Assembly: GCA_030685015.1 (NCBI GenBank)
Contig: JAUXWS010000027.1
Span: 1-32,024 of the forward strand
Reading direction: 5' to 3'
Origin: a bacterium
GTDB taxonomy: Bacteria > CAIWAD01
DNA length: 32,024 nucleotides
Shown here piece after piece: positions 5,067 to 22,434 of this stretch (positions are counted from its first letter, which is position 1; the number at the start of each line of letters is the position of its first letter). The notes under the pieces are model-generated. The model was given only the letters and a program-made list of their open reading frames with translations. It had not been told where the DNA came from and did not search any database. The translations under genes and the position numbers were made by a program.

Positions 5067-6195
5067 TCACTTGTCGGCGCGGGGCCGGTTGAGCACGGGA
5101 TCCAGCAGGAAGCCGCGCACGAAGCGCAGCAGCTCCCCGCCCAGGACACCGGTCGTGTCGCTGGTCTCGACCCCCGTGCGGTGGTCCTTGACCATGTTGT
5201 AGGGGTGCAGCACGTAGCTGCGGATCTGCGAGCCCCAGGCGTTGTCCAGCTTGGTGCCCTCGAGCACGACCCGCTTGGCCTCCTCCTCGTCGCGCTTCTT
5301 CGCCAGCAGGCGGCTCTTGAGCATCTTCATGGCCGTGGCGCGGTTGCGGGACTGGCTGCGCTCGTTCTGGCACTGCACAACGATGCCGCTGGGCAGGTGG
5401 GTCATGCGGATGGCGCTGTCCGTCTTGTTGACGTGCTGGCCGCCCGCCCCCGAGGCGCGGTAGGTGTCCACCCGGATCTCGCTGGGATCGATCACGATCT
5501 CCGGGTCCTCCTCCTCCACCACGGGATAGAGGAAGACGCTGGCGAAGCTGGTGTGGCGGCGGCTTTGGCTGTCGAAGGGCGAGATGCGCACCAGGCGGTG
5601 CACGCCGATCTCGCTGCGCAGGTAGCCGAAGACGTTGGCGCCGCTGATCTCGATGGACGCGTTCTTGATGCCGGCCAGTTCGCCCGGCTGCTCGTCCAGC
5701 GTCTCCATCTTCCAGCCCTGGCTCTCGCAGAAGGCCCGGAACATGCGCAGCAGCATGCCCGCCCAGTCCTCCGATTCCGAACCGCCGGCGCCGGGGTGGA
5801 CGGTGAGGATGGCGTTCTTCTCGTCGTCCGGCCCGCACAGCATGGTGGCCAACTCCAGCGCGTCGAGATCCGCCTCGAGGGTGCGCGTCAGCTGGGCCAG
5901 CTCCTCCAGCTCGTCCTCGGCGGACAGTTCAAGTAGGTCGGCGATGTCCCGGCATTCCGTCTCGACGTGCTGGTAGCGGTTGACCACCTGCTTCAGGCGG
6001 GCCGCCTCCTGCAGGATGGTGCGGGCCTGGGTCGGTTGCTCCCAGAAGTCCGGAGCCTGGCTGCGGGCCTCCAACTCATTGGCCTTCTCCTGGCGGCGAT
6101 CGACGTCAAAGACTCCTCCGCAAATGCCCCAGCCGCAGCTCGCCCTGCTTCAGCACACGCTTGAGGTCGCTCTTGAGGATCGCCATCGTCGTCAT
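5067..6195 (-). CDS. Peptide chain release factor 2, made by programmed +1 frameshift
   Basis: RF2 releases peptides at UGA and UAA. The main frame (5067-6107) carries the codon-recognition tripeptide SPF in RISPFDSQSRRH and the catalytic GGQ in SGAGGQHVNKTDSAIR. Upstream, a short zero-frame ORF begins at ATG 6195 (or ATG 6186, better spaced from AAAGGA) and ends in-frame at TGA 6106-6108. A +1 slip at CTT joins it to DVDRRQEKANELEAR, the standard RF2 N-terminus. The first ATG overlaps the SpoIID stop as ATGA. A single-frame annotation would miss the first 28 or so residues or call a pseudogene; the slippery site shows it is intact. Confidence 0.95.
6105..6117 (-). promoter_or_regulatory. prfB programmed +1 frameshift site
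   Basis: On the minus strand the sequence reads GGAGG, AGT, CTT, TGA, C. The SD-like GGAGG sits 3 nt before the CTT slippery codon, the same spacing as the known E. coli prfB site, and the next codon is UGA followed by C, a weak stop context. When RF2 is scarce the ribosome slips forward onto GAC and completes RF2, giving autoregulation. All elements are seen directly; the mechanism is the established one for this gene. Confidence 0.95.
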
Positions 6196-7817
6196 GTCCT
6201 TTCAAGTGGACCGCCCGTGGGCGGATAGAGCCTGATCAACTCGGTACCCGGAAAGTAGTGGTCCAGGATGCCTGCGCAATCGAGACCGGCTTCGGCCAGG
6301 GCGCCGGCGCCCACCTGGCAGAGGCCGCAGCCGTGGCCCTCACCGGCGCCGCACAGGCTGAAGGAATGGGGCAGGCCCTCGGCGTCCTGCTCGGCGTGGA
6401 CGCTGAAGCAGCTGCTGAGCAGCCGGCCCGGGGCAAGTGCCTCACGGATCTTCAGCTCTTTCTGCAGCCTCAGGTTGTGGCGGCTGCCGATCAGCTCCAG
6501 CTCGATGATGCGGCCCGAGACGCCCCGCTTGACGGGCACGATCTCATAGAGGGTGCCCAGGTCGACGCCGGTCTTGCGCAAGACGATCTGCTCCAGCTCG
6601 GCCCGCATGAAGACCTCCTTCCAGCGGAAGGTGCGGCGCGATCGTTCGAGCAGGGCGGGGTGCTGCGAACGGGTGACCCGGCAGAGACAATCCGCCGGCG
6701 GATTGAGGATCCAATTCCGCACCGCCGCCTCCCGGGCCAGGGAGACGCGCCGCGTGGTCGCTTCCGCCGTGTCCGGGCGGCCGCGCAGCACGGCCTCGGG
6801 CGGCGTGGACCAGACGTTCTCCTTGTGTTCGCCATGGCCGCCGCAGCAAGCGTGGACCACCGCGTCGCAGATCTCGTCCCGGCAAAGGATCACTTCGCCG
6901 CGACTCTCGTCCACGGCCCGGTCGCAATCCTCGTCGCGGTGGGTCAGACCGCTGTAATGGAAGCAGTGGCCTCCCGCGCAGAAGTGCCAATCCTCATTGC
7001 GATGGCGCATGCCCAGCATGGCCAGGGCCATGGAGCGAACCGCCACGGCGGCGGCGCGCTGGGCCTGGGAGGGAAAGCCCGTCTCCAGCTCGGCGGGCAG
7101 GACGCCCTTCAGCCACTCGTCCACCGCCAGCTCGTTGACCACGGCCAGCTGGCCATGGTTGTCCACCCGGAACTCGAGGTCACCGCTGAACCGCCGGTCC
7201 TCCAGCGGGCTGTCCGGCCAGCGCTCGCAGGGCAGGCGGAAGAGGGTGACGGCGCCCCCCGCCTCCGGCCGGATGCGCAGCCCCTCCCCCACTTCCTGGT
7301 CCAGCTCGAAGGACGCGTCGGTGATCTCCACCTGGCCGGCCGGCGGGATCAGACGTTCGCGCACCAGGCGGGGTCGCCACGCGTTCTGGAAATGGGTCAT
7401 CAGCTCGGCCGCGGCGGCGGGATCTTCAAAGGAGCCGCAGACCACGCGGTATCGCTTGCGGCCCGGTCGCACCGTCGCGTCGGGCGCCTGGACAGCGCCC
7501 AGCTCCACGATGCGGGCCTCGTAACCCTGGGCGGCCAAGCGGCCCACCACCCGCCGGGCGGCGCGCGGGTCGGACGTGGCGGTCACGATGACGGCGTGGC
7601 GCAGGCTGGCCGGCACCCCGTTCTGTGTCCGCACCATCCAGCGGCGGTCGGAGGCATCCAGCCGGTGCAGCAGGTCCCCGGCCAGGGTCTCCAGACGGAA
7701 GGGTCCCTGGACCCTGATTTCGATCTTGCTCAAGCGCTCGGCCAACAGGACGCGGATGAGCGGCGCGGCCTTCCACGGCGTCGCCCTGGCATTCTTGCTC
7801 CTGCTGGTGCGAGCCAT
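6192..7817 (-). CDS. SpoIID/LytB-domain protein, Cys-rich, no evident signal peptide
   Basis: This 541-residue protein has a SPOR-like or FlgD-like stretch near residues 75-150 (RYRVVCGSFEDP). A SpoIID domain begins near 205, with the catalytic-type Glu243 in GVLPAELETGFP. Motifs ACCGGHGEHKENVW and GEGHGCGLCQVGA are also typical. SpoIID domains are lytic transglycosylases acting on peptide-denuded glycan; the non-sporulating role here is unknown. Roughly 17 cysteines are present and I see no hydrophobic leader, so localisation is unclear. ATG 7817 is preferred over ATG 7826 because AAGGA is better spaced. The stop overlaps prfB by ATGA, so it heads the prfB-lysS-lol-mcs operon. Confidence 0.8.
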   Translation of the reverse strand: MARTSRSKNARATPWKAAPLIRVLLAERLSKIEIRVQGPFRLETLAGDLLHRLDASDRRWMVRTQNGVPASLRHAVIVTATSDPRAARRVVGRLAAQGYEARIVELGAVQAPDATVRPGRKRYRVVCGSFEDPAAAAELMTHFQNAWRPRLVRERLIPPAGQVEITDASFELDQEVGEGLRIRPEAGGAVTLFRLPCERWPDSPLEDRRFSGDLEFRVDNHGQLAVVNELAVDEWLKGVLPAELETGFPSQAQRAAAVAVRSMALAMLGMRHRNEDWHFCAGGHCFHYSGLTHRDEDCDRAVDESRGEVILCRDEICDAVVHACCGGHGEHKENVWSTPPEAVLRGRPDTAEATTRRVSLAREAAVRNWILNPPADCLCRVTRSQHPALLERSRRTFRWKEVFMRAELEQIVLRKTGVDLGTLYEIVPVKRGVSGRIIELELIGSRHNLRLQKELKIREALAPGRLLSSCFSVHAEQDAEGLPHSFSLCGAGEGHGCGLCQVGAGALAEAGLDCAGILDHYFPGTELIRLYPPTGGPLERT

Positions 7818-7933
7818 CGTCAGCATCCTTGGGTCGATATCCGGCTTTCCAGCGGTCTGATGCTTGCGCTTCGCACTTCCGGATCAATTCCTTCGGACAT
7901 CCGCATGTTCAGCCGCCTTTCCGGAAAGTGCTT

Positions 7934-8407: not shown

Positions 8408-9091
8408 TCAGCTGCCCGGCCGGTCCAGGGCCATGATCATGTCCACCCGGCGCTGGTGGCGGCCTCCCTCGTAGGGCTCGGCCAGCCAGGCCAGGGCCAG
8501 GGCCAGGCAGGCCTGTTCCCCCAGACGAGCTCCCAGGGTGAGGAGATTGGCGTCGTTGTGCCGCCGGCTGGACGTGACGCTTTCCAGCGACTCGCAGGCG
8601 GCCGCGCGCACGCCCGGCACCCGGTTGCAGACCATGGCCGAGGCCACGCCCACCGTGTCCAGCATGATGCCGCGGGCCGCCCCGCCGCCGGCCACCTCCC
8701 GTGCCAGGAGCGCGGCCCACAGGGGATAATCGGTGGGGGCGGGGTCGGGACAGCCCAGATCCCGCACCGTGTAACCGGCCTTCTCCAGCTCCCGGGCGAG
8801 GTGCAGGCGGCAGGCATAGCCGCCGTGGTCGCTGGCCAGGGCAACCTGGACGCGATCCCGCCGCGCCGGGTTCTCCCCCGCCTCGGCGGCCACCGGTCGC
8901 GGCAGGTCCTCCACCCATTCCAGCACGACACCCAACCGGTGGGCCAAATCCCGCGCCTCGTCGGTGAGGACGGAGCGGCCCCTGGGCAGCAGCAGCCGGC
9001 CGCCCCCGGCCGCGCCGGCCTCCCGCCTCACGCGTTCGGCCGTGATCAACACGACACCCGAATCGTGCCGCCCGACCGCAGGCCGCCTCAT
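8408..9091 (-). CDS. RpiB/LacA-family sugar-phosphate isomerase-like protein with N-terminal extension
   Basis: Residues 81-227 align along their length with ribose-5-phosphate isomerase B. Asp88-His89, SRRHND with His178, and PYEGGRHQRRV are all present. The active-site loop differs: where RpiB has CGTGIG, this protein has DTVGVA, so Asp145 replaces the catalytic Cys. An extra N-terminal domain of about 60-80 residues (LITAERVRREAG, then LTDEARDLAHRLGVVLEW) resembles the N-terminal segment seen in some microcompartment-associated EutQ-like proteins; this is a weak resemblance. The ATG at 9091 overlaps the stop of the GH2-like gene as ATGA, so the two are coupled. It may act on another sugar phosphate or be non-catalytic. 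Confidence 0.82.
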   Translation of the reverse strand: MRRPAVGRHDSGVVLITAERVRREAGAAGGGRLLLPRGRSVLTDEARDLAHRLGVVLEWVEDLPRPVAAEAGENPARRDRVQVALASDHGGYACRLHLARELEKAGYTVRDLGCPDPAPTDYPLWAALLAREVAGGGAARGIMLDTVGVASAMVCNRVPGVRAAACESLESVTSSRRHNDANLLTLGARLGEQACLALALAWLAEPYEGGRHQRRVDMIMALDRPGS

Positions 9092-11658
9092 CCCCACCCC
9101 CCGTGGATGCGCCGGTAGTAATCGATGTACTCGAAGAGGCTCTGGGACCGCTCGTACCAGAAGAGGACGAGCAGGAGCGTGGCCAGCCCCAGCACTCCCA
9201 TCAGGCCGAACATGCCGTAGAAACGGCCCTCGAAGGCGATGCGCAGGGCCTTGACAAGGCGGACCAGATACCAGGAGATGAGCACGGCCAGCAGGAAAAC
9301 GGTGGGGATGCGAGCCGCCGGCGAAAGCATGAGGGGCTGGAAGACAATGCCGATGGGGATGGTGAAGAGCAGACTGGTGGAGCTCCAGGCCAGCAGCGTG
9401 ATGGCCTGTCGAAGCGTGAAGCGGGCGTTGCTGAACAGGCCCAGCACGCGCAGGCCGATGGCGAAGAGGATCTGCCCGCCCAGCAGGGCCAGCGACAGTT
9501 GCGCCACGCTTTCCAGCGGGTTCCAGGCCAGGCGGTGGATCCAGTGGAGCAAAGGGTCCAACACCACGACCAGGCCCAGCAAACGGTCGAGAAAAGGGCT
9601 CTTGCGCAACAGATGGAGCCAGCCGGAACCCAGCAGGGCCATGGCTCCCGACACGACGACGAGGAGGAAGATGGCCTGCCCGAACTGGAAGACGCGACGG
9701 TCGCGGATGTCCGTGAAAAAGCCGTGGGAATGGATGAAGCTGCGGCGCAGGTTCTGCCCGAAGACGTTGTTCTGGCGCCAGCCGATGAGCAGCAGGATGA
9801 GCAGGCCAAAACCCACCAGGGCGAAAGCGGGAGGGTGGGGCGACTGGTACTCCCCGCGGCTGAGGGTGCCAGGCGCTCCCCCCGAGAAAAGATTGGCCAC
9901 CTCCTTGGCCGAGGCGCGCGCCACGCGGTCTTCGGTGAAGAGGCCCTGCGTGACCAGCAGGGGGTCCTGGCCGGGTGGGGCGGCCAGCTGCGGCCGTCCG
10001 CCCCGCCAGTCGGCGTAGCCATGCACGATGGTGCCGGCGGGCGCGTCTGCCGCGCCGGATTTCCAGGCGGCCAGCGCCTGGCCCAAGGCCGACTGGAGGG
10101 CCCAGGCTTGGTGCAGCTCGCTATAGGGGTCCTCGTATCCGGCCAGGTTGCCCACCTCCACGGGCCAGCCCAGGCGCGACAGCAGGACGGGCCGGGCCAA
10201 GTCGGGAAGCTGCGCCTGCACATCCTGGCCGAAGGACTCCAGCAGCAGCAGATCCAGGCCTCGCAGCGCCTCCGCCCCCTCCGTGCCAGCACCGGTGAAG
10301 AAGCCACCAGCCGCCAGCAGGAACTGGCCCTCCGTGCGCAGGACCTGCAGGTCGTCGATCCAGGTGCGCGCCGCCGTCGTGCTGAAGTCCAGGCCGCTGC
10401 CCATGCTGAGGCCCAGCCAGCAGGCGCTGCCACGACTCTGGTGGACCAGCTCGCGGGCCTGGACGAGGGCCGCCTGGCGAAAGGCGGCGCGGGAGACAAG
10501 GCGGGGCGGCACCTGCCAGACCGGCAGCTCGCTCATGAGGAGGAGGCCCAGCTGGTCGCAAACCTGGCTGAGGGCGGGGTGGGGCGCCCCCCTCATGTGC
10601 AGTACCAGATTGACACCCATGTTCTTCATGGCCTCCAGGTCCCGCCTGAGTTGGGCGGCGGTAATGGCCATCCCCGTGGCGGGATGGTCGGCCACATAGG
10701 TCATGCCCTGGAGGAAGAGGGGTGCGCCATTCAGCCGCAGCTGTCCCTTGTCCAGATCCACCTGCTTGAGACCGATGGCCTGCCGGCGGCGATGGATCAG
10801 GCGCCCATCCTGGCTGAGGGAGAGGGTCAGTTCCAGCAGATCGGGATGATCGGGCGACCACAGCGGGAGGCGGGCCGACGCCGTCAGCAGCAGCTCCACT
10901 TCCTGGCTCTCCAACGGCCGGACCTGGATCGGCAACCGGACGGCGGCCAGCAGGGAACCGGCCGGATCACGCAGGGCGGCGTCCACCCAGAGATCCGGCG
11001 CGCGGCGCAGGCTGTCCAGTCCCAGCAATTCCTGGTTGCGCACACGCAGACGGAGCTGGAGGCGATCCCCCGTGGCCGGGAAGTCCCAGCGCAGGTCGCC
11101 CACGGTCAGGCGCGGGCTCTCAAGCAGCAGCACCTCCCGGTAGATGCCGCCAAAATGGGCCGGATCCCCGCTCTGGGTCTTGAGGGGAAGGGACTGGCGG
11201 GCCGACAGCCGGTTGTCGACCAGGACCTCCAGCTGGTTGGGCGGTCCGAATTGCAGGAAGCGCTCGGGGATCTCCAACTCGAAGGAGGCGGAGCCGCCCT
11301 CATGGCGGTCGAGGAACTTGCCGTTGACGAGGACCTGGCAGGTATAGGAAACGCCGCCGAACCAGAGCCGCCAGGAGGACTGCACCCCCGCCTCGGGCAA
11401 GGTGAAGCTGCGCTGGAAGCGGATCTCCCCCTCATGGCCGGTCCAGCAGGAGGGCACCAGGCACTCTCCGCCGCCCGGTCCCTCCGCCATGTTCCATTGC
11501 CAGGTACCGGACAAGTCGTGGACGCGAGCGTCCAGGCTGTCCAGCCGCGGCAGCCAGACAGCTTCCCGCCTCTCACCCGGACGTGGAAGGAAGTGCGGCT
11601 GGGCGCCCAGGCAACCCGCCAGCAACAGAATGACCAGCCAATGGATCGGGTGGCCCAC
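9088..11658 (-). CDS. GH2-like sugar-binding protein fused to a multi-pass membrane domain, catalytic glutamates absent
   Basis: This 856-residue protein begins with a lipobox-like leader (LLLAGC, residues 11-16). A GH2 sugar-binding jelly roll (about 47-180), an Ig-like domain (about 180-300) and a TIM-barrel-like region (about 305-570, with LNGAPLFLQGMTY and CDQLGLLLMSELPVW) follow. The WSLGNE acid/base motif reads WLGLSM (414-419), and the nucleophile position in RPVLLSRLGW is Arg495, so neither catalytic Glu is present. About seven membrane segments follow (roughly 611-627, 659-681, 690-708, 718-741, 752-778, 783-805, 813-834), perhaps Yip1-like. I infer a membrane-anchored glycan sensor or scaffold. 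The GTG start is the only option after an upstream in-frame stop. A hairpin separates it from the Exb-type cluster. Confidence 0.8.
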   Translation of the reverse strand: MGHPIHWLVILLLAGCLGAQPHFLPRPGERREAVWLPRLDSLDARVHDLSGTWQWNMAEGPGGGECLVPSCWTGHEGEIRFQRSFTLPEAGVQSSWRLWFGGVSYTCQVLVNGKFLDRHEGGSASFELEIPERFLQFGPPNQLEVLVDNRLSARQSLPLKTQSGDPAHFGGIYREVLLLESPRLTVGDLRWDFPATGDRLQLRLRVRNQELLGLDSLRRAPDLWVDAALRDPAGSLLAAVRLPIQVRPLESQEVELLLTASARLPLWSPDHPDLLELTLSLSQDGRLIHRRRQAIGLKQVDLDKGQLRLNGAPLFLQGMTYVADHPATGMAITAAQLRRDLEAMKNMGVNLVLHMRGAPHPALSQVCDQLGLLLMSELPVWQVPPRLVSRAAFRQAALVQARELVHQSRGSACWLGLSMGSGLDFSTTAARTWIDDLQVLRTEGQFLLAAGGFFTGAGTEGAEALRGLDLLLLESFGQDVQAQLPDLARPVLLSRLGWPVEVGNLAGYEDPYSELHQAWALQSALGQALAAWKSGAADAPAGTIVHGYADWRGGRPQLAAPPGQDPLLVTQGLFTEDRVARASAKEVANLFSGGAPGTLSRGEYQSPHPPAFALVGFGLLILLLIGWRQNNVFGQNLRRSFIHSHGFFTDIRDRRVFQFGQAIFLLVVVSGAMALLGSGWLHLLRKSPFLDRLLGLVVVLDPLLHWIHRLAWNPLESVAQLSLALLGGQILFAIGLRVLGLFSNARFTLRQAITLLAWSSTSLLFTIPIGIVFQPLMLSPAARIPTVFLLAVLISWYLVRLVKALRIAFEGRFYGMFGLMGVLGLATLLLVLFWYERSQSLFEYIDYYRRIHGGWG

Positions 11659-11754: not shown

Positions 11755-12798
11755 TCAGGATCCGAAGGCCATCTTCTGGCCCATCTTGAAATCACCCATG
11801 GAAGGATCGATGGGATCGAAGCGCCAGCTGGAGATCTTCTGCTTGAGACAGGATTCCACCCGGCGCCCGGCGTTGGGATCGGACCACTTGGGCTGGGTCA
11901 GCTCCACATCGGCGACGGAGCCGTCGGCCTTGATGGTGAACTTGGCCAGGACCGAGCCCTTGAGCCCGCGATCCCGCTGCAGCTGCCGCTCGTAGCAATC
12001 CTTGAGGCCGGGCGAGTAGCCGGCGATGGCCGCGCGCAGGGCCTCGGCGCTGCGCGCCTGCTCCCCGGCAAACTTGCCGCTGCGGTCGTAGGTCTGCACT
12101 CCGCCCTCGAGCAGATCGCCCACCGTGCCGCCACCCACCGCCACATCCACGCCCGTCAGCGCGCCCTGCAGGTTGACTCCGCCCGAACCGCCGCCCTTGG
12201 GACCATCCGTCTTGAGGCGCCGGGCGTTCTCGGCGGCCTGGCCCGTCACCATGCCGACCAGCCCCTCTGTCGAGACGGCGCCGCCCCCCGTCACCTGGGC
12301 GGCGTCCACCAGGCCGCGCGCCGCCGCGCCTCCGCTGGAGCCCGTCACCAAGGCGATGCCGCCGGTGGAATTGACCAATTCCTGCGAGATGGCCTCCCGC
12401 CGGCTGGCCCGGCGCTCCGCCGCCGCGCCGCGCCGCGCCTCGGCCTGCTGGGCGCTGCCCTGCTGGCGCTCCACCGGCCGGTCCAGCACCTCGCGCTCCG
12501 CCCGCTCCTCCTGGCCGACCTCCGCCTGCTCCTCGACGACGTCGGTGGGCGTGGTCAACCCTTCCGCGATGGGGGCGGCGGCCTCGGGCGCCTTGATTTG
12601 CTCGATGCGCCGAAAGCGGGTGGCGAAGAATTCCTGGATCTCCTCCTGGCTCAGTTCCCGCACTTCCATCTGGCTGCCCACATAGAGGATGGCCAGCTCC
12701 ATGAGGCCGAAGATCACGAAGAGCCAGACGGTCAGCGCGTCCAGCCCGGAGAAGGGCCTCTTGCGATAAGCCGCCAAGGCGGCAGGGGAAGCGGACAC
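11755..12798 (-). CDS. TonB/AgmX-like energy transducer
   Basis: This 347-residue protein has one membrane segment (about residues 19-41), then a charged Glu/Arg/Ala-rich linker, a Gly-rich stretch (about 145-235), and a C-terminal domain of about 95 residues. The latter has the AgmX/PglI-type pattern: GLKDCYERQLQRDRGLKGS, KFTIKADGSVADVELTQP, then a second Cys in ESCLKQKI and a WRFDP ending. Such proteins carry force or proton-motive energy from an ExbB/ExbD or AglRQS motor into the periplasm or outer membrane. It is last in the tightly packed exbB-exbD-exbD set, with a GTG start after AGGAG and 9 nt after exbD2. The partner is unknown; the TPR proteins are natural candidates. Confidence 0.85.
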   Translation of the reverse strand: MSASPAALAAYRKRPFSGLDALTVWLFVIFGLMELAILYVGSQMEVRELSQEEIQEFFATRFRRIEQIKAPEAAAPIAEGLTTPTDVVEEQAEVGQEERAEREVLDRPVERQQGSAQQAEARRGAAAERRASRREAISQELVNSTGGIALVTGSSGGAAARGLVDAAQVTGGGAVSTEGLVGMVTGQAAENARRLKTDGPKGGGSGGVNLQGALTGVDVAVGGGTVGDLLEGGVQTYDRSGKFAGEQARSAEALRAAIAGYSPGLKDCYERQLQRDRGLKGSVLAKFTIKADGSVADVELTQPKWSDPNAGRRVESCLKQKISSWRFDPIDPSMGDFKMGQKMAFGS

Positions 12799-12807
12799 GG
12801 TCCTCTC

Positions 12808-13362
12808 CTAGTTGCTGCTCCGGACCACCACGAACTCCGTCATGTTGAACCCCGCCGAACCGCAGGTGGCCAGGACTTTGAGGATCGAGTTGTAATCCAC
12901 GGCCGCGTCGGCCTGGATCGTGATCTCCCCCTGGAAGGGGATGCCGAAACGGGTCTCCAGGTCGCGGGCCTCGGCGGCCTTGACCAGCAGGAAATTCTCC
13001 AGGCCGCGCAGGATCATGGAGCGCGGATCGAAGGCCGCCGCCCCCGCCGCCTGGCCCAGCAGGCTGCCCGCGTCGTCGAGCAGTTCCTGGCGTTCGCCCC
13101 CGCTCTCCGTGAAGACGCCCGCCACGCCGCTCAGACGCCCCGAGTCCACCACGATGGAGAGAGCCTCGCGGGGCGTCGTGTTGATGTTGGAGGCGGGCAG
13201 TTCAAGCTGATCCACCTCCATCACCAGCGATCCACTCGCAGAGTAGCTCTTGATCAGGAAGAGGAGGACGATGGTGAAGAGGTCCATCATCGAGGTCAGC
13301 GGGATGCCCTGCGGGACCCCGCCCGAGCCTCCCCAGCGCCGCATGTTGCTTGGTGCCGCCAC
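12808..13362 (-). CDS. ExbD/TolR-like protein 2, with conserved transmembrane Asp
   Basis: This 184-residue protein has a short cytoplasmic N-terminus and a membrane segment (about residues 20-40). Asp27 in LTSMMDLFTIVLLFL sits at the position of the proton-carrying Asp of ExbD. The periplasmic domain ends in the usual TolR-like fold (GEITIQADAAVDYNSILKVLATCGSAGF). The GTG start at 13362 has GGAGG 5 nt upstream and follows the first exbD by 9 nt. It should be the stator subunit that actually carries protons in this motor. Confidence 0.9.
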   Translation of the reverse strand: MAAPSNMRRWGGSGGVPQGIPLTSMMDLFTIVLLFLIKSYSASGSLVMEVDQLELPASNINTTPREALSIVVDSGRLSGVAGVFTESGGERQELLDDAGSLLGQAAGAAAFDPRSMILRGLENFLLVKAAEARDLETRFGIPFQGEITIQADAAVDYNSILKVLATCGSAGFNMTEFVVVRSSN

Positions 13363-13371
13363 GGCGACCTC

Positions 13372-14007
13372 CTACTGGATCTTGCCCATCAGGGGACTGG
13401 GAAAGAGCTTCTCCATCTCCCCTGTGCTTGGATTCTTGATGCTGCGGCAGGCGTCCAGCAAGCTGACCAGCACCTGAAACTGCAGGTCGTTGGGCGCGCT
13501 GATCATCACGTTCTCCGCATCATCGTAGCCATAGGCCTCCACCATGCGGGGACTGCCGTCCGCGTTGAAGACCGGCTTGCCGAGGGCGTCCTCCTCCTGC
13601 ACCTTGCCGGTGATGGAGGGCACGACGATCTCCCGCCGGATGCGGGTCAGCTCCGCGCCCAGGCCCGCCAGATCCAGCCGGCCGTCGGACAGGCGCGGCA
13701 GATAACGGTAGCGGCCGGGCTCGGCGCTTTGGCTGGTGGCGCCCATGATCGAGACCGCGCTTCCCCCCTCGTCCACCGACACCACCAGGGAAAGCCGCGA
13801 CAGGGGCTTGTCCTGCTCCTCGGACATGCCGGATCCGCCCCCGGCGGCGGCGGGCGGCAGGCGGGTCTCCAGGAGCCCCAACTTGACGAACTCCGCGGTC
13901 GCCAGAAGGAGGGGAATCAGCACCACCACCAGGTTCATGATCGGCGTGATGTTCAGTTCCTCGTCCTGGCCCACGAACTTCCGTCGCCGGGTAGGTTTGA
14001 AGGCCAC
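13372..14007 (-). CDS. ExbD/TolR-like protein 1, transmembrane Asp replaced by Asn
   Basis: This 211-residue paralogue has the ExbD N-terminal signature ELNITPIMNLVVVLIPLLL, in which Asn25 (codon AAC, 13933-13935) occupies the position of the essential Asp. The rest of the membrane helix and the periplasmic TolR-like domain (ending NDLQFQVLVSLLDACRSIKN) appear intact. A 60-70 residue insertion with little recognisable homology lies between the two. The GTG start is immediately after the exbB stop. Because it cannot carry a proton at this site, I infer that it pairs with ExbD2 as a structural half of a heterodimer. A single-base GAC/AAC change would account for the substitution. Confidence 0.88.
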   Translation of the reverse strand: MAFKPTRRRKFVGQDEELNITPIMNLVVVLIPLLLATAEFVKLGLLETRLPPAAAGGGSGMSEEQDKPLSRLSLVVSVDEGGSAVSIMGATSQSAEPGRYRYLPRLSDGRLDLAGLGAELTRIRREIVVPSITGKVQEEDALGKPVFNADGSPRMVEAYGYDDAENVMISAPNDLQFQVLVSLLDACRSIKNPSTGEMEKLFPSPLMGKIQ

Positions 14008-14658
14008 TTACTTGCTCCGCGTGATCAGATGGATCAACTTGACTGAGTACTCGTCGATGTCCGCCAGGATCGAGTTGGTGCGATTGTTGATGATGCTGTA
14101 GGCCAGCATCGCCGGCACCGCCACGATCAGGCCGCTCAAGGTGGTAAGCATGGCTGTCGAGATGCCCGCCGCCAGGGCCTGGGAGGCTCCGGCGCCGCCA
14201 CCGGCCAGGGCGGCGAAGGACTGGATGAGGCCGAAAATGGTGCCCATCAAGCCCACCAGGGTGGAGACGTTGGCGAAGGTCTGCAGCCAGGCGGTCCGCT
14301 TGGTGAGCTTGGGGATGATCTCGAGGGCGGCCTCGTCCACGGCGTTCTGGATGTTGCGGTAGTCGACGATCTCACGGTCCACCGCTTCCTTCAGGGCGCG
14401 GGCGTAGATGTAGGCCAGGGCCTTCTCCGACATGCTGTCCGCCAGCTTCCACGCCTTCGACACGTCCCCCGCGCTGACCATTTTGAAGATGTCCTGGGAG
14501 AAGCGGGCGGCGTCGATGTTGGATTTGAAGTTCACCGTGATCAGGCGCTCAACGAAGACCACCAGCGCCAACAGACCGATGAGCCAGATCAACCAGAAGA
14601 AGCTGGCGCCCGGATCGGTGGAAGCCGTGGCATTGAGCAGCTGCACAAAGGGGTTCAT
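14008..14658 (-). CDS. MotA/TolQ/ExbB-family proton channel protein
   Basis: This 216-residue protein has three membrane segments: about residues 18-40 (FFWLIWLIGLLALVVFVERL), 120-150 (VSTLVGLMGTIFGLIQSF) and 160-190 (STAMLTTLSGLIVAVPAMLAY). This is the ExbB/TolQ/AglR core that forms the pentameric ring around an ExbD pair. ATG 14658 is preferred over longer starts because GGAGGA lies just upstream and the protein then begins with a normal short N-terminus. It leads the motor genes and directly follows the Cys-cluster gene by 20 nt. Confidence 0.93.
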   Translation of the reverse strand: MNPFVQLLNATASTDPGASFFWLIWLIGLLALVVFVERLITVNFKSNIDAARFSQDIFKMVSAGDVSKAWKLADSMSEKALAYIYARALKEAVDREIVDYRNIQNAVDEAALEIIPKLTKRTAWLQTFANVSTLVGLMGTIFGLIQSFAALAGGGAGASQALAAGISTAMLTTLSGLIVAVPAMLAYSIINNRTNSILADIDEYSVKLIHLITRSK

Positions 14659-14678
14659 GAAGTCCTCCGCTATCCCTT

Positions 14679-15056
14679 TTAGCCCAACAGTTTCGAAAGC
14701 AGGTGCCGGATGGCCTCCAACTGCCCGCGCAGCTTGTTCGAGGCGCAAACCGGATTGGTGTAGACGCAAATGTTGGCCCGGCAGTAATCCAGGCGTTCAT
14801 TGCAGCCCACGTTGTATTGATAGGTCGAGGTGGGCAGCATGCGCGCCGTGACCTCGTCCCGCTGGAAGGTGATGCCCCGTTCCTTGGACAGGCGATGCAG
14901 GAAGTCCCAGAGGAAAACCTGGGCTTCCAGAACCTCGCGCGGTTTGAGCTTCTTCAGCTCCGCCGTGAACCGTTCCCCGTCGTGGCAGCACTCGATGAGG
15001 CGCTCCCCGATCTCGCGGATGTTGGACGACAACTGCTTCGACTTCTCACTTGCCAC
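14679..15056 (-). CDS. Small predicted cytoplasmic protein with a C-x6-C-x4-C-x6-C cluster
   Basis: This protein of about 125 residues has no signal peptide or membrane segment. It is mainly helical in its first half (IREIGERLIECC, VLEAQVFLWDFLHRLSKERG). Near the C-terminus four cysteines (87, 94, 99 and 106, counted from the ATG at 15062) form a symmetric C-x6-C-x4-C-x6-C pattern that could hold a metal or Fe-S centre. A CC pair lies at 25-26. I do not recognise the family. The GTG at 15056 is chosen because GGAGG sits 6 nt upstream; ATG 15062 abuts it directly. It overlaps the small secreted protein gene and precedes exbB, suggesting a role with the motor. Confidence 0.78.
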   Translation of the reverse strand: MASEKSKQLSSNIREIGERLIECCHDGERFTAELKKLKPREVLEAQVFLWDFLHRLSKERGITFQRDEVTARMLPTSTYQYNVGCNERLDYCRANICVYTNPVCASNKLRGQLEAIRHLLSKLLG

Positions 15057-15438
15057 TCTCATCCTCCGTGGCTGCCTTGTCTTGATCGGCGGATGCCGGA
15101 CTCCCCTTTAGCGGCCAGGCGGTCTGCGGCAGGATGCGCGTCCTGGCCAGCAGACTCTCCCGGTCCCGCAGGCGCTCCCCGCGGACGAGGGCGCGATCCA
15201 GGCCGACCAGCCGCGGGTCGGGCGTGCGCAACTGGTCGAAGAAGGACTTCTCCAAGCGGAAGCCGGAGATTTCCGGCTGCAGGCGCGAGGAGATGATCGC
15301 CACCGACGGCTCCCGCACCTGGCCCTGGATGTTGACCTCATCCAGCATGAGGATGCCCTCCTCCTGGGCCGCCGCCCGCCCGGCCAGCAGAAGCAGCAGG
15401 GCGGCCGCGGGAAGGCTAATCGATCCGGTTCTTGACAT
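15046..15438 (-). CDS. Small secreted protein of unknown function
   Basis: This 130-residue protein has a clear signal peptide (PAAALLLLLAGRAAA, cleavage likely near residue 25). The mature part begins LMLDEVNIQGQVREPSVAIISSRL, probably a beta-rich motif, and ends in a charged, disordered-looking tail. I do not recognise the family. Its ATG lies 23 nt inside the giant TPR gene and has GGTGAG upstream; its end overlaps the next gene. This tight packing points to a shared function with the TPR proteins and the ExbB/ExbD motor, probably in the periplasm. Confidence 0.75.
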   Translation of the reverse strand: MSRTGSISLPAAALLLLLAGRAAAQEEGILMLDEVNIQGQVREPSVAIISSRLQPEISGFRLEKSFFDQLRTPDPRLVGLDRALVRGERLRDRESLLARTRILPQTAWPLKGSPASADQDKAATEDESGK

Positions 15439-18400
15439 GGATCCGGCTCACCTTGCGCTGGAAGTCCAGCTTGCGCTGCCCCTCCAGCTCCCGTTGAATC
15501 TGCGCCTCCAGCATCTCCGGCGTCAAACGCGCGATCTGGCGGACATGCAGTTCCAGAACGAAGCCGCCGCCCAGACCGTCGCGGTCCCGCACCTCCACCG
15601 CCAGCAGGTTGCTGCCGCTGCGAAGGAACTCGCCCAGCTCGTAGCTCATCAGGCCCGTGGGCGCCGCCTGGCCGTTCGGATCCCCGCCCACCTGCTCGTC
15701 AATGTACTCGCCGTTGAAGAAGATGGCGAATCCATCATCGGCGGCCAGCTGCAAGTTGGCCCCCACCGGCGTGCCCGCCAACTCGAAGGCGTGGCGGAAG
15801 TAGAGGGTGTCCGCCACGGCGACCACCGTGGCCTGGCTAGGCAGCGCCAGGCGCACCACGCTGTCCAGGCTGTCCACCAGCAGGGCGCCCTTCGCCAGCA
15901 GCCCGGACAAGGCCTCGGTGCTGTCGGCGGGCACGCTCAGGGTGTCCGGCGGCAGGGTGCGGCCCGGAGCCGGATTCCAGAGCGCCGCCGCCCCGGGCAG
16001 GAGACCCTGCAGGGCCGGCCGCCCGACGACCTGGGCGTCCATCCAGCCGCTCTCCTCGTGATCGGGCCGCTCGAAGCCCTCCACATAGCCGCGCCGCACG
16101 CGCCAACTCGCGCCGCTGCGGACGACCAGACCCTCCTCGCTCAAACCGAAGCGGTCGCCGAAGGCGGCGGGGTCCATCTCGGCCAGGGCCATGAGCAGGC
16201 GCCGGGCGGGGACGCTGCCGGCCCGGGTGCGCGAGACGGCGGGCTCGACCTGGACCAGCACCTCCCGCGCCGTCTGGACCAGGAAGTAGGAGGCGTCGTC
16301 CAGGGTGGTGTGGGCGTCCCGGTGGACGTAGCTGGCCGATTGCTCGAAGCGGCGCCAGTAGTCCTCCTTGCGCACGGTGAGGCCGTCCCGCCGGCGCTTC
16401 GTCTCAACGGACCAGGCCAAGGCGTGGGCGGCCAGGGTGTCGCTCAGCTCGCCGCCCAGGGAGGAGGGCAGGCCGCTCTCGATCAAATGCTGGATGATGC
16501 GCTCCGTGAGCAGCAGGCTGCTCAGCGCGTAGCCCTGGCAGAAGTCGGCCATGTCCAGCACATCGCTCCCGTAGTCCTCTTCGGTCAAGCCGGCCGGGTC
16601 GACATAGTTCTCGCCGCGGTCCACCGTGGCCAGGAAGCGGTCCACCAGGAGGTCGAACTCCGCCGCCGCCTCCCGGCGGAAGGCCAGTCCCGCCTGCGGC
16701 ACCTTGTGGACGAGCAGGCGCAAACGCTGCTCGACGCGGGGCAGCCAAAGACGGTCAAGCCCCACCTGTCCGATGATCTCGAGCCCCTCCCGGTAGGCAT
16801 CCAGGCTGCCCTGCAGGGCGACCATCACTGTGCCGCCCAGGATGTTCTTGTCCGTGTCGGCCAGACGCAGGAAGGCGTCGTCGCGATACTGGGACCTGAG
16901 GGCGAGGGCGTGGTCCACCCGCTGCTCGAAGATGGCGAGGGAGGCGAGGATGAGTTCGGGCACCCGCTCCCGGCTGCGGCTGGTCCAGATCGTGCTTTCG
17001 GTCAGGGAGCTGTCCAGCAGGTCGGCGGCGCGCAGGATCGCCAGACGCTGGGAGAGGCTGTCCTCCGACAGGCCGCCACTGTCGGGCGCGGCGGCCAGCC
17101 AGGCCTCCAGGTTCTCGCGCCGGCGGCCCAGATCCCGCTGCTGGCGGCGGAGGGACTCGATGGCCGCGTCCAGCTCCTGGGTTGTGCCGATGTAACTGCG
17201 CGCCGCGACACGAGCCAGCTCGTGGGAGGCGTCCTGGATCGTCACCTCGCTGCGCAGCCGCTCCTCCGGCGTCAGCCAGGAGGCCCGCTCCTGCTCGCGG
17301 TAGGCCCGGGCGAACTCCTCATGGGTGGCCGCGATCATGTAGCGGGCGTAGAAGACGTCGCCCGTCCCCATCTGCACCAGTTCGCTCAGGTCGGCCAGCA
17401 ATCCATCGCGCGCCGCCTTCTTGTCGGCCAGATCCTGCTCGAAGCGAAGCTCGGGTTGATGCAGGGCCAGACGCTGGTAATCCTCGAAGCGCCAGCCCAC
17501 CAGTTTGCGCAGGGCGCGCGAGGCGTAGAGCGGATTGCCCGCCCCGCCCCGCCGCAGCAGCTGGCGGTTTCGCTCCACCGCCTCGCGGTACTCGGCGCGG
17601 GCGGCCGGCTCGTCCCGTTGGCGCTGCAGGTACTCGGCCCGCTCGACATAGGCCTGCACAGTGCGCGGGTCGTCCGGATAACGGGCGGCGAAGTCGGCGT
17701 AGATCGTGTTGGCGGCCGTCACGTTGTCCAGCTTGAGCCAGAGACCGGCGTTCTCGAAGAGCACGGCCGAGGCGTCCTCGGCCTCCGGATAGCGCTCCAC
17801 GTAAATGGCGTTCATGCGGATGGTGCTGGCCCAGTCCTCGCTTCGATTGTAGCACCAGGCGGCATTGCTGATGGCCGAGCGGGCGTAGGGCGAGTCCGGG
17901 TACTCCATGGCCAGCCGCTCGAAGGTGCGGGCGGCGCGGGCCTGGTCCTTCAGCTCGTTGAGGCAGAGGAAGGCGCCCAGGGAGAGGGCCTGGTCGGCGT
18001 AGGCGGACTGCGGATGATGGTCGGCCAGGTAGAGGTAGGTCTCGGTGGCCGACGCATGGTCCTGGGCCAGGCTGAACTCGTTGCCCGCATCCATCAGGGC
18101 GGCGTCGGCGAAGGGGGAGTCCGGCACGTCCAGGGCCATGCGCCGGAACTCCTCGGCGGCGCGCCGGTGGTCCTCGGCCTTGCGCAGGCCGTCGGCGAAG
18201 CTGTAGACGGACTCGGCCTGGCGCTGACGGGCGCGGGCCAGGGCATCGGCCGGCAGGTCCATCCCCTGGATCTCGCGGGCGATGGCCTCCGCCTCCTGGA
18301 AGCGCCCCAGGGCGAAGAGACTCTCCAGCTTGAGCTGATAGGCCTCGCCCACTTCGGGCGCCTGGGGCCAGGCGGCGATCAGGCTGTCGAACAGGGCCGT

Positions 18401-20347
18401 GGCCGCCGCGAAATCGTAATGCGAGTAGTGGAGCTTGCCCTCGAGCAGGCGGTAGCCGGGAGCGCGCTCGTCTTCCGGGAAGAGGTCCACGAAGTTGGCC
18501 AGGGCCTCCTTCTTCTTCTCCTCCATGGGTGTCAAGGGCACCAGCACCATGGCGCCCACCGAATCCGGCAGGGCCGGAGCCGGCCCGCCCCGGGCCTCCG
18601 TGTCCACCAGGATCTGGGAGAGGGCGATGGCGTTGTAGGCGGCGTCGCGCCGGTCGCGCTTGGGATAGCCGCGGCTGATGGCCAGATACTCGTCATAGGC
18701 CGTGCCGTGGTCCTGCAGCTCGGCCTCCAGTGTCTTGGCCAGGTTCCAGTGGATCAGGTAGGCCGAGCTGTCGTCGGGAAAGGACTGCAGGTAGCGGCGG
18801 CTCTGCAGCATGTACTCGTCGAAGTCGGCGCGGTGGCGCGTGGCATAGGCATGGTCCAGGGCGATGCCCACGTTCTCCTCGAGGTGCCGCTCGAGCAGCT
18901 CCTCGACCCGCGCCCACGTCTCCGCGTCCGAGCGCCAGGGACCTTCCCCCGCGTAGCGCTCATAGAGCTCGTTCTTCTCCTGGTAGGCGAGCTGGGCGTC
19001 GGCCAGGGCACCGGGCGCGTAGCACTGGATGATCTTTTCCTGGATGAAAGGCGCCTCCGGCCGGTCCGCATAGAGGGAGAGCAGGCTGTCGTAGGCCGCC
19101 ACGGCGCGCGGGAAGTCCTGCGTCTCCTCGCGGAAGAGGTCGCCGTAGCGCTCCATCAGGCGCAGGCCCACCCCGGCGCGCAGCTCTCCGTCGTCCGCCA
19201 CCAGCCGGGTAAGGCCGCCCACCGTCGCCTGGTCCCAGTCGGGATCGGCGTAATTGACGGCGATGTAGGCGATGGATTCGTCCAGCAGGTCGGCCCCCAG
19301 GCCCTCCTCCACGTCCTGCTTGCGCACGGCGAACTTGGCCGCCTCGACGAAGTAGGACACGCTCGTCTCGTGTTCCTGCAGGCGGTAGTGGCACCAACCC
19401 AGCTTGTAGAGGGCCTTCTCCCGCGCCGGATAATCGTGGTAGTCGAGAATCATGGCGTAGGAGTCGATGGCCTGGCGGATGGCCTCCTCGCCGTCCTGGC
19501 GGAACCAGTATTCCCCCAGCCGCATCCAGGCCTCGGGCGCATAGGCGGAAGCGGGAAAGTCCCGCACCAAGTGCTCATAGAGGCGCCGGGACTCCTCCAC
19601 CTCCACCGGATTGGTCGAGTTCTCCCGGATGTAGGCCACGTTGTACAAGGCGTCGTCCATGAAGTCCGAGTAGGGGAACTCATCGATCACGCGCTGGTAC
19701 TTCTGCACGGCGTCGGTGAAATCCTTGACCGGTTCGAAGCCGGTGGGCAGCCCCCGCTCCGCCCGCGCCAGCAGGCTGTCCTGGGCGGCGAAATAATGCT
19801 CCTCGGAACGCGAGTAGTAGAGTTCGGCGAGCTGCAGGCAGAGCTTGGCCACCACGTCGCGCTGGCTGAAGCGCTGCAGGTTGCGGTCCCGCCGATAGGT
19901 GGCGAGGAAGCGCTCGCCCTTGTCGAGCACCGTGTCCCGCACTTGGGCCCTGCGTTTGAGCAGGCTCTCCCGCTCGGCCTCGTACTCGCGCTGGAGGGTG
20001 CGCAGCTGACTCTCGTCCAGATCGAAAAGACGGGCCTCCTCGATGCTGCGCAGCAGGTGGATGAGGCGCAGCTTGAGCTTGGAGATCTCAATGTTGATCT
20101 CCCCCTGCCTGGGGCCGCTGCGGGAGGCGTCCAGGGCCACCAGCTCACGGTACTGGGCCAGCACCAGGTTGCCCTCGTCGATCCAGGCGCGGGCCCGATC
20201 CCCCACCGCCAATTGGGAGACGCGCCCCCAGCGGGCCAGCACGGCCTCCTCGATGCGGACCTTGTCGGAAGTGGCGGCCGGCTGGGCCAGGACGCCGGAC
20301 ACCAGCAGCGTCAGCAGGGCCAGCGCCAGCAGCAGGAGCTTCCTCAT
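15416..20347 (-). CDS. Giant secreted TPR protein (1643 aa) with putative C-terminal carbohydrate-binding-type domain
   Basis: A signal peptide (residues 1-21, KLLLLALALLTLLVSGVLA) precedes a coiled-coil region (about 75-155). An array of TPR/YbgF-like helical repeats then extends to at least residue 950, with recurring YPDSPYA- and FPYSDF-type turns. A long helical region follows. At about 1515-1603 is a putative galactose-binding-like beta-sandwich (ADDGFAIFFNGEYID, then SGSNLLAVEVRD). The protein is expected in the periplasm as a scaffold. Its ATG overlaps the stop of TPR protein A as ATGA, and its end overlaps the small secreted protein gene. Large TPR proteins also accompany Agl/Glt gliding motors (AgmK-type), but this resemblance is architectural, not a demonstrated orthology. 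Confidence 0.85.
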   Translation of the reverse strand: MRKLLLLALALLTLLVSGVLAQPAATSDKVRIEEAVLARWGRVSQLAVGDRARAWIDEGNLVLAQYRELVALDASRSGPRQGEINIEISKLKLRLIHLLRSIEEARLFDLDESQLRTLQREYEAERESLLKRRAQVRDTVLDKGERFLATYRRDRNLQRFSQRDVVAKLCLQLAELYYSRSEEHYFAAQDSLLARAERGLPTGFEPVKDFTDAVQKYQRVIDEFPYSDFMDDALYNVAYIRENSTNPVEVEESRRLYEHLVRDFPASAYAPEAWMRLGEYWFRQDGEEAIRQAIDSYAMILDYHDYPAREKALYKLGWCHYRLQEHETSVSYFVEAAKFAVRKQDVEEGLGADLLDESIAYIAVNYADPDWDQATVGGLTRLVADDGELRAGVGLRLMERYGDLFREETQDFPRAVAAYDSLLSLYADRPEAPFIQEKIIQCYAPGALADAQLAYQEKNELYERYAGEGPWRSDAETWARVEELLERHLEENVGIALDHAYATRHRADFDEYMLQSRRYLQSFPDDSSAYLIHWNLAKTLEAELQDHGTAYDEYLAISRGYPKRDRRDAAYNAIALSQILVDTEARGGPAPALPDSVGAMVLVPLTPMEEKKKEALANFVDLFPEDERAPGYRLLEGKLHYSHYDFAAATALFDSLIAAWPQAPEVGEAYQLKLESLFALGRFQEAEAIAREIQGMDLPADALARARQRQAESVYSFADGLRKAEDHRRAAEEFRRMALDVPDSPFADAALMDAGNEFSLAQDHASATETYLYLADHHPQSAYADQALSLGAFLCLNELKDQARAARTFERLAMEYPDSPYARSAISNAAWCYNRSEDWASTIRMNAIYVERYPEAEDASAVLFENAGLWLKLDNVTAANTIYADFAARYPDDPRTVQAYVERAEYLQRQRDEPAARAEYREAVERNRQLLRRGGAGNPLYASRALRKLVGWRFEDYQRLALHQPELRFEQDLADKKAARDGLLADLSELVQMGTGDVFYARYMIAATHEEFARAYREQERASWLTPEERLRSEVTIQDASHELARVAARSYIGTTQELDAAIESLRRQQRDLGRRRENLEAWLAAAPDSGGLSEDSLSQRLAILRAADLLDSSLTESTIWTSRSRERVPELILASLAIFEQRVDHALALRSQYRDDAFLRLADTDKNILGGTVMVALQGSLDAYREGLEIIGQVGLDRLWLPRVEQRLRLLVHKVPQAGLAFRREAAAEFDLLVDRFLATVDRGENYVDPAGLTEEDYGSDVLDMADFCQGYALSSLLLTERIIQHLIESGLPSSLGGELSDTLAAHALAWSVETKRRRDGLTVRKEDYWRRFEQSASYVHRDAHTTLDDASYFLVQTAREVLVQVEPAVSRTRAGSVPARRLLMALAEMDPAAFGDRFGLSEEGLVVRSGASWRVRRGYVEGFERPDHEESGWMDAQVVGRPALQGLLPGAAALWNPAPGRTLPPDTLSVPADSTEALSGLLAKGALLVDSLDSVVRLALPSQATVVAVADTLYFRHAFELAGTPVGANLQLAADDGFAIFFNGEYIDEQVGGDPNGQAAPTGLMSYELGEFLRSGSNLLAVEVRDRDGLGGGFVLELHVRQIARLTPEMLEAQIQRELEGQRKLDFQRKVSRIHVKNRID

Positions 20348-22434
20348 GGGCGACCTCCGCCGCCGTTGGCCGCTCCCGCGCCACCCTCGAGCAGGCCGCC
20401 GATGCTTTCCAGGTAGCCGTCCAACTCGCGCAGGCGGTCCTCGATGCGGCGCAACTCCTCGAACTCGATGTCGCCGATGGCCAGGCGTGAAAAAGCCAGC
20501 TCACTCCAGCGGGGCAGGTTGCTCATGACCGGACGTCGCGGCAGGCGGGCGGCGTGGCTGCGCAGGCCCTCCACCCCGGCCTCCATCCGCAGGTAGCGCT
20601 CGCGGTAAAGGGTCTGCAGGGGATCGCTCTCCAGGCCGCGGGGCTGCAGCTCGGCCAGGCGCCCGTCCAGGCGGTTCAGCTCGATGCGCGAACTGACGGC
20701 CAGGGTGTCCAGCATGGCATTGGCGCTGGCCAGGGTCCGCTCATGGATCATGAGGGGCTGGCGCTGGATCTCCATCAAGCCGGAGAAGCGGATGCGGCTC
20801 ATGAGGCGCCGCACGTCCCGTTGGAGGAGGGCCATCTCCTGGCGGGCGGCCGGGGCGGCCTCCTGGTAATCGCTCTTCAGCAGGGTGCCCAGGCGGCGCG
20901 CCAATTGGGCGATCTGCCGCCGCTCGTCGATGTACTCGCGCATGGACTCGTTGGCTGTCTGCAACTCGGTGTACTTGACGCGGTTCATGAGGACGCGGCT
21001 CTGGCCGCGCAGCCGCAGGTACTCGTCGAAGTGGTCGGTGCGGCCCTCGCCGAAGACGCTGGTCTCCATCTCCACCAGTCGACGCAGCAGGTGCAGCATC
21101 TGCCGCCGCTCAAGGGCCAGCTCGCGCAGGCTCTCGCCCCGCTCGGCCTCGTCCATCACCTGGCTGTACCAGCGGCGCGACTCCTCGCTGTTCAGCTCCT
21201 CGGCGGCGTATCCGGCCAGGGTCATGGCCTCGTAGCGGTAGGAGGAGGAGGGATAATGGGTCACCAGCTCGCGGGAAAGGGAGAGGGCCCGCTCGTGGTC
21301 TGAGAGGCTGAGGCCGCTCCAGGCCTTCCCGAGCAACGCTTCCGGGTAGCGCTCGCCGCCCTTGGCCACCGCCTCGAACATGCGGGCCGCCTCCTGGAAC
21401 TGGCCGGCCTCGAAATAGAGATAGCCCAGCTTGATGCGGGCATCCTCGCGGATGGCGGGGTTGGCCGGATCCTCGCGCCGCTGGCGGCGGGACATGGCGG
21501 CCAGGTCCTCGAAGAGGGCGATGGCGTCGGTCTGGCGGTTCTCCAGGATCAGGCAGAGGCCCGTCAGGTGGCGGGCGCGGATCTTGACCGGATCCCCGGC
21601 CGGCACCTGCTCGAGCAGGCGCAGGGCGTCGCGGAAACGCTGCGCCAGGAAGTACTCGCGACCACACAGGTAGGAGACCTCGCCCGGGGCGGCGGCCAGG
21701 TCGCGGCTGAACTCGTCGCACTCGGCCACGGCCGTGGCGTGCTGGCCGAAGAGGGCGCGCAGGGCGACAAGATGCCGGAAGGCCTGGGGTCGGAAGGCGC
21801 TTTCCGGCTGCGTGCGCAGCAGGACCAGGTAGTGCTCCACCGCCGTGTCCCAGGCGCCGTCCGCCAGGGCGGCCTCGGCGCGATAGAAGCGCACGTCGTC
21901 CAGGTTGACATAGGGATAGAGGTCCAGGATCTCCTGCAGCAGCGCTCCAGCCAGGCCGTGCTGCCCTGCGGCATAGGCGGCCACGGCGCGCTTCAGGTCC
22001 CGCCGGAACATGTCCTGCAGCGCATCGGGCGCCGCCGTGGAGGCCAGGCGGCGGCGGATGTCCCCCGAGGCGGCCAGCTTGACGGCAAGCACCTCCTGTT
22101 GGCGCTTCATCCAATAGTCCAGCCGTTCCGCCACATGGGCAGCGCCGTCCGGAGCCTTGACCGGCGTGATCAGGGCCGGCACGTCATCTGACAGCAGCGG
22201 CTCAAGGGCCAGGTTGCCCAGGATCCCGCTGCGTCCGCCCTCCTCGATGATGCCCTCCAGCCGGAAGGTGAGCACCTGCTCCTGGAGGATGAGCCGGCGC
22301 GTCAGGGAGCGCACCTGGTCGCGCAGCCAGGCTTCGCGGGCTTGATCGAAGGTGACGGGAGCGGGGTCGATGGCTTCCGCGGCCATGCACCAGAGCGGCG
22401 AGAAGGCCAGGAGGATCAGTACTCTTGGGAGCAT
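20344..22434 (-). CDS. Secreted TPR protein A (about 696 aa)
   Basis: The N-terminus has a signal-like segment (LPRVLILLAFSPLWCMAAEA). Helical TPR repeats follow across roughly residues 130-420 (for example FRYDAL-like and YLYFEAGQFQEAARMFEAVA units). The last third is coiled-coil rich (IDERRQIAQLARRL, RIELNRLDGRLAEL). It should be a periplasmic scaffold. I favour ATG 22434, which begins the signal sequence and has GGAAG upstream; GTG 22467 would add eleven basic residues. It is the first gene after the promoter at 22552-22580 and its stop overlaps the giant TPR gene by ATGA. No enzyme motif was seen. Confidence 0.82.
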   Translation of the reverse strand: MLPRVLILLAFSPLWCMAAEAIDPAPVTFDQAREAWLRDQVRSLTRRLILQEQVLTFRLEGIIEEGGRSGILGNLALEPLLSDDVPALITPVKAPDGAAHVAERLDYWMKRQQEVLAVKLAASGDIRRRLASTAAPDALQDMFRRDLKRAVAAYAAGQHGLAGALLQEILDLYPYVNLDDVRFYRAEAALADGAWDTAVEHYLVLLRTQPESAFRPQAFRHLVALRALFGQHATAVAECDEFSRDLAAAPGEVSYLCGREYFLAQRFRDALRLLEQVPAGDPVKIRARHLTGLCLILENRQTDAIALFEDLAAMSRRQRREDPANPAIREDARIKLGYLYFEAGQFQEAARMFEAVAKGGERYPEALLGKAWSGLSLSDHERALSLSRELVTHYPSSSYRYEAMTLAGYAAEELNSEESRRWYSQVMDEAERGESLRELALERRQMLHLLRRLVEMETSVFGEGRTDHFDEYLRLRGQSRVLMNRVKYTELQTANESMREYIDERRQIAQLARRLGTLLKSDYQEAAPAARQEMALLQRDVRRLMSRIRFSGLMEIQRQPLMIHERTLASANAMLDTLAVSSRIELNRLDGRLAELQPRGLESDPLQTLYRERYLRMEAGVEGLRSHAARLPRRPVMSNLPRWSELAFSRLAIGDIEFEELRRIEDRLRELDGYLESIGGLLEGGAGAANGGGGRP

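Follow-up and report, generated by a model that had tools for sequence, protein, structure and literature searches.

A conserved family of GH2-like proteins lacking the catalytic glutamate pair and fused to a Yip1-like membrane domain

The window, by which we mean the whole 32,024-nucleotide stretch of bacterial DNA analysed here, carries a gene for a protein with a GH2-like body and a Yip1-like membrane domain (Table 1). The open reading frame is real and lies on the minus strand, running from a GTG start at 11658 to a stop codon at 9088-9090 and encoding 856 aa; the plus-strand reading of the same interval was rejected, as its translation gives no GH2 protein. The gene follows the TonB-like (AgmX/PglI-tail) gene of an ExbB-ExbD-ExbD cluster, on the same strand and 96 bases apart, and overlaps an rpiB-like gene by about 10 bases. 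Also in the motor cluster are two TPR proteins (1643 and 707 aa) that show YbgF- and GltC-like matches. Two further minus-strand features of the window are a gene for a SpoIID-domain protein with a SPOR domain (6192-7826) and prfB (RF2), where a CTTTGAC site follows a GGAGG-like stretch upstream of the main frame (6100-6120), the usual arrangement for the programmed +1 frameshift of RF2.

Table 1. Features of the locus, in window coordinates, with residue numbers of the encoded protein
Feature	Position	Strand	Basis or remark
Motor cluster	11755-22467	-	resembles Glt/Agl-type motors
Two small proteins, no known family	14679-15062, 15046-15438	-	
ExbB/TolQ-like protein	14008-14769	-	
Two ExbD-like proteins	13372-14007, 12808-13362	-	
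AgmX/PglI-tail TonB-like protein	11755-12798	-	
Gene of GH2-like/Yip1-like membrane protein	9088-11658	-	856 aa; full-length in about 108 genomes
Predicted signal peptide, residues about 1-19, hydrophobic core	11602-11658	-	sequence; family hydropathy peak
GH2 N-terminal jelly-roll (sugar-binding), residues about 44-185	11104-11529	-	GH2_N, PF02837, E 6.1e-10
Ig-like domain, residues about 186-298	10765-11103	-	PF00703, E 0.0015; 16/18 members
TIM barrel without the catalytic pair, residues about 299-595	9874-10764	-	GH2_C, PF02836, E 4e-8; fold match
Gly422 codon, at the acid/base Glu position of ordinary GH2 enzymes	10393-10395	-	alignment columns
Arg495 codon, at the nucleophile Glu position of ordinary GH2 enzymes	10174-10176	-	alignment columns
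Membrane helix 1 of the mature protein, residues 610-630	9769-9831	-	hydropathy, AlphaFold2
Basic segment between helices 1 and 2, predicted cytoplasmic, residues 631-658	9685-9768	-	
Yip1-like five-helix domain and short C-terminal tail, residues 659-856	9091-9684	-	

The order of domains in the exported part is that of GH2 enzymes. Pfam profiles detected GH2_N (residues 77-182) and GH2_C (residues 300-380) above cut-off in the window protein and the Ig-like domain weakly, in agreement with a sequence-only reading that had recognised sugar-binding, Ig-like and barrel regions; across the family, the TIM-barrel model PF02836 was matched in 18/18 members tested. The same 18 proteins all match beta-galactosidase/beta-glucuronidase models, the window protein far below the cut-offs of those models. 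An AlphaFold2 model of the full protein, built from a ten-row family alignment, reached a mean pLDDT of 77.5 and a pTM of 0.72, and when the PDB was searched with this model by Foldseek, GH2 beta-glucuronidases and beta-galactosidases were returned. The best E was 1.8e-30, and TM-scores normalised to the target were 0.76-0.77 for 6xxw and 6ncw_C. The suggestion that the GH2 fold is kept is thus borne out by structure prediction. On its domain order and its modelled three-dimensional fold, the protein is a homologue within the GH2 superfamily, sharing the jelly-roll/Ig/TIM-barrel order, homology and fold with beta-glucuronidases and beta-galactosidases such as the Bacteroides beta-glucuronidases 6ed1 and 5uj6, and also 6xxw and E. 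coli LacZ. Unlike ordinary GH2 proteins, however, it belongs to a separate clade in which no member has the full Glu pair and to which a six-helix membrane tail is attached.

To locate the catalytic positions, we used an alignment of 52 rows comprising the window protein, 39 relatives and a further twelve GH2 proteins. Ten of these twelve have the ordinary N-E motif and are referred to here as ordinary GH2 rows. The acid/base Glu column falls on Gly422 of the window protein and the preceding Asn column on Ser421, so that the earlier placement of the acid/base position at Met419 reflects a register slip of three residues; the nucleophile column falls on Arg495, the very residue proposed before. 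In the ordinary rows, the Asn-Glu of the acid/base site is kept in 10/10 and the nucleophile in 9/10 (the tenth has an alignment gap), both Glu being present in 9/10. Among 95 aligned family members, by contrast, the nucleophile Glu occurs in 2, the acid/base Glu in 18 and both together in none. Residues as unlike one another as N, S, G, R, K, I, D and L stand at the nucleophile position, most members have lost the Asn that precedes the acid/base position, and the 95 members show no conserved substitute acid at either site. Other positions of the fold are kept (D550 in 93/95, Q517 in 73/95, C367 in 37/40, D469 in 33/40). This combination, in which fold positions persist while active-site positions have drifted, is the pattern of a retained fold and lost catalysis.

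Judged by its sequence, the family therefore lacks defining features of an active GH2 glycosidase, and the loss of catalysis claimed for the window protein extends to the family as a whole: with both catalytic Glu in no member, hydrolysis by the usual GH2 mechanism is not to be expected of these proteins. A GH2 enzyme that is active in the absence of its nucleophile Glu is not known to us. The 18 holders of the acid/base Glu are clustered, 16 of them belonging to one lineage, the phylum of genome G077, which suggests that loss of the nucleophile preceded that of the acid/base residue. These 16 members, together with the conservation of D550, Q517 and other barrel residues, might instead be taken to mean that the family is still enzymatic, using a different set of catalytic residues or substrate-assisted chemistry. 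We consider this unlikely, given that unrelated residues replace the nucleophile, that the Asn is mostly gone and that no substitute acid is conserved.

The membrane part had been read as about seven segments. Its multi-helix character stands, and the count is better described as a signal peptide plus six helices (about 610-630, 660-682, 714-740, 755-777, 781-802 and 810-835) in both the family-averaged hydropathy profile and the AlphaFold2 model. A LAGC motif at residues 13-16 of the signal peptide could be a lipobox, but it is not common to relatives. AlphaFold2 modelling of residues 600-856 on 41 sequences gave a mean pLDDT of 91.6, and helices 2-6 of the mature protein form a set of five membrane helices, as in a Yip1 domain, by hydropathy and in the model. 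Yip1 profile PF04893 matched 10/18 full-length members and 23/41 membrane domains (E up to 1; best E 2.7e-8), below cut-off in most tested members; L090 scored 33.9 bits against a gathering cut-off of 28.6 with a match spanning almost the entire profile, and the best members in general match near the full length of the profile. The window protein itself gave no match to PF04893, so its Yip1 assignment rests on alignment with members that do. A Foldseek search of the PDB with the modelled membrane domain found no match (best E 1.9), and no Yip1 domain structure has, to our knowledge, been solved. The likeness to the Yip1 family (PF04893), which includes YknW of the YknWXYZ transporter, lies in the five-helix membrane domain, and the difference in its fusion here to a GH2-like body that is predicted to be exported. 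The membrane domain of L084 gave a match to DUF4271 that stays below cut-off (E 1.2e-4), and the DUF4271 and Yip1-like domains may be related; a literature search on DUF4271 found nothing relevant.

Charges in the loops support a consistent orientation of the membrane part. The segment after helix 1 carries a family mean of 6.4 K+R versus 2.4 D+E, and the loop between helices 5 and 6 a mean of 2.7 K+R versus 0.3 D+E; this alternation fits the positive-inside rule with a periplasmic GH2 body and a periplasmic C-terminus, the predicted topology in the cell. Helix 1 and the basic segment are the most conserved region of the protein, with a mean pairwise identity of 36%, followed by the jelly-roll (33%, the highest value within the GH2-like body), the barrel (25%), the Yip1 part (24%) and the Ig domain (20%). 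Near-invariant residues are R639, F647 and R655 in the basic segment and W712, P714, W758, W796 and R800 in the Yip1-like part.

The fusion had also been called unusual for GH2 proteins, which is too strong: we found two further groups with a GH2 body followed by several membrane helices, L062/L064/L065, in which the catalytic Glu pair is intact, and L063/L066, in which it is lost. Their tails are not detectably homologous to the Yip1-like tail, and they form separate clades in the tree. A common ancestry of the tail with that of the intact-pair proteins L062/L064/L065 is not supported (hhalign probability 0.3%).

About 108 genomes, belonging to seven phyla or more, carry the full-length protein. 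It was found in all five genomes of the window genome's own phylum, in 8/9 of the phylum of G056, in 47/82 of that of G049, in 32/40 of that of G077 (21 of 23 complete genomes) and in 12/13 of that of G084 (all nine complete genomes); further carriers are G005, the sole member of its phylum, G011, G058 and G332. The count of at least seven follows from the genome lists of six phyla, which do not overlap and contain none of G011, G058 and G332. Nearly all carriers have one match per genome at strict thresholds; a few copies are truncated where the contig ends, and one is split (G462). In a maximum-likelihood tree of the GH2-like part, computed with the catalytic columns removed, all 34 family rows fell into one clade (SH-aLRT 100), by which the sequences show that the family has a single origin.

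These data bear on whether the gene is in decay or an artefact of assembly, as its missing catalytic residues might suggest. We find this scarcely credible, and the survey refutes it: nearly all carriers, in several phyla, hold a single copy with a full-length open frame, and near-invariant residues occur in all domains. A single copy across most genomes of five phyla speaks for retention and not decay. Joining of a separate membrane gene by assembly error is likewise ruled out, since in relatives, too, one reading frame covers the GH2-like body and the membrane part, so that the fusion noticed in the window is real and conserved. The protein thus appears to be an unrecognised conserved component, probably of the envelope, and not an oddity of one genome.

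Its position beside the motor cluster had led to the idea of a glycan receptor or scaffold feeding the nearby motor. An accessory of the ExbB-ExbD-ExbD/AgmX-PglI-tail motor, relaying glycan binding to it, would fit the arrangement in the window's genus, where, in three species (G000, G001 and G002), the gene immediately follows the TonB-like gene and shares its strand. Direct adjacency is limited to these species, however. In G003, of the same family, about 7 kb of other ORFs separate the gene from the motor cluster, and no motor gene was found at the G004 locus or at the first loci examined from other phyla. The AglRQS/Glt-type envelope motor therefore shares the locus in one genus, is not a conserved neighbour elsewhere and has no sequence relation to the family that we could find. 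With smc and a GWxTD gene as the widespread neighbours, the motor link does not hold as a general explanation, and we regard an accessory role of this kind as quite unlikely.

Neighbours were counted at the 45 family loci with sequence downstream. An smc gene of the same strand lies directly downstream in 22/45 loci and within three genes in 26/45, and a gene for a GWxTD-domain protein (PF20094) lies within four genes downstream in 20/45, giving a same-strand order of GH2-Yip1 gene, smc and often GWxTD gene across several phyla (for example at L034, L039, L104 and L115). In a sample of 336 genomes, GWxTD was present in 18/18 family carriers versus 79/336 overall (hypergeometric P 9e-13, a value made too extreme by the relatedness of the carriers). 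These conserved neighbours do not point to a glycan function. At three loci from part of G056's phylum (L038, L105 and L106), the surroundings of the gene include a Wzi-type capsule assembly gene and one for a bacterial sugar transferase (we checked these domains in L038); this vicinity is a weak hint of a link to surface glycans.

The neighbourhood raises the alternative that the GH2-like body binds a protein and not a glycan, serving in assembly or as a chaperone for a partner such as GWxTD, with a vestigial sugar pocket. The barrel pocket is variable compared with the conserved jelly-roll and membrane/basic region, and both the proximity of GWxTD genes at 20 loci and their presence in every sampled carrier would agree with such a partnership. 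The co-occurrence, however, is confounded by shared ancestry, and 61 of the sampled genomes have GWxTD without the GH2-Yip1 family; smc usually separates the two genes, and in the window genome the GWxTD gene is on another contig. We therefore view a purely protein-directed role as possible but rather doubtful.

The reading that we favour, with modest confidence, is that the protein is a periplasmic platform for non-hydrolytic binding or assembly, set on a Yip1-type membrane domain and acting in the envelope. The signal peptide would export the GH2-fold body, with its jelly-roll, Ig domain and TIM barrel, to the periplasm; helix 1 would lead back to the conserved basic cytoplasmic segment, followed by the five-helix Yip1-type domain with the C-terminus outside. 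The body would bind a periplasmic glycan or a partner protein without cutting, and the Yip1-type domain would couple this binding to a membrane complex. In bacteria, the Yip1 family member YknW modulates how the YknXYZ ABC transporter complex is assembled (PMC4887032), a precedent that makes an assembly role of the Yip1-type domain conceivable by analogy. Given the lower conservation of the barrel pocket relative to the jelly-roll and basic segment, a conserved glycan ligand in the pocket is no more than a possibility; a role as receptor or scaffold is plausible. From these features we infer ligand binding, scaffolding and an envelope function, in which the protein would serve several phyla as a constitutive single-copy envelope component and not as part of the ExbB/ExbD motor. 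More tentatively, it may be an ancient pseudo-glycosidase that has become a near-universal single-copy factor of several, mostly uncultured, phyla and takes part with GWxTD proteins in a core step of envelope assembly or secretion.

A literature search covering papers outside subscription found no description of the GH2-Yip1 fusion, an architecture that domain databases may list; papers holding both Yip1 and GH2 were unrelated as far as their titles and abstracts indicate. The search likewise found no paper on pseudo-GH2 membrane proteins and no mention of GWxTD, and a GH2-Yip1/GWxTD envelope system, if real, has not been described so far. In the usual case, a pseudoenzyme is recognised as a rare relative of enzymes that are active. 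In the present case, an entire clade of GH2-fold proteins lacks the catalytic pair, carries a fused membrane domain and is kept as one copy in the majority of complete genomes in several phyla, a retention that implies an important role. On the strength of their N-terminal domains, these proteins would tend to be called beta-galactosidase or beta-glucuronidase in databases, a misleading label. For poorly known phyla, the family offers a direct way into the biology of the envelope.
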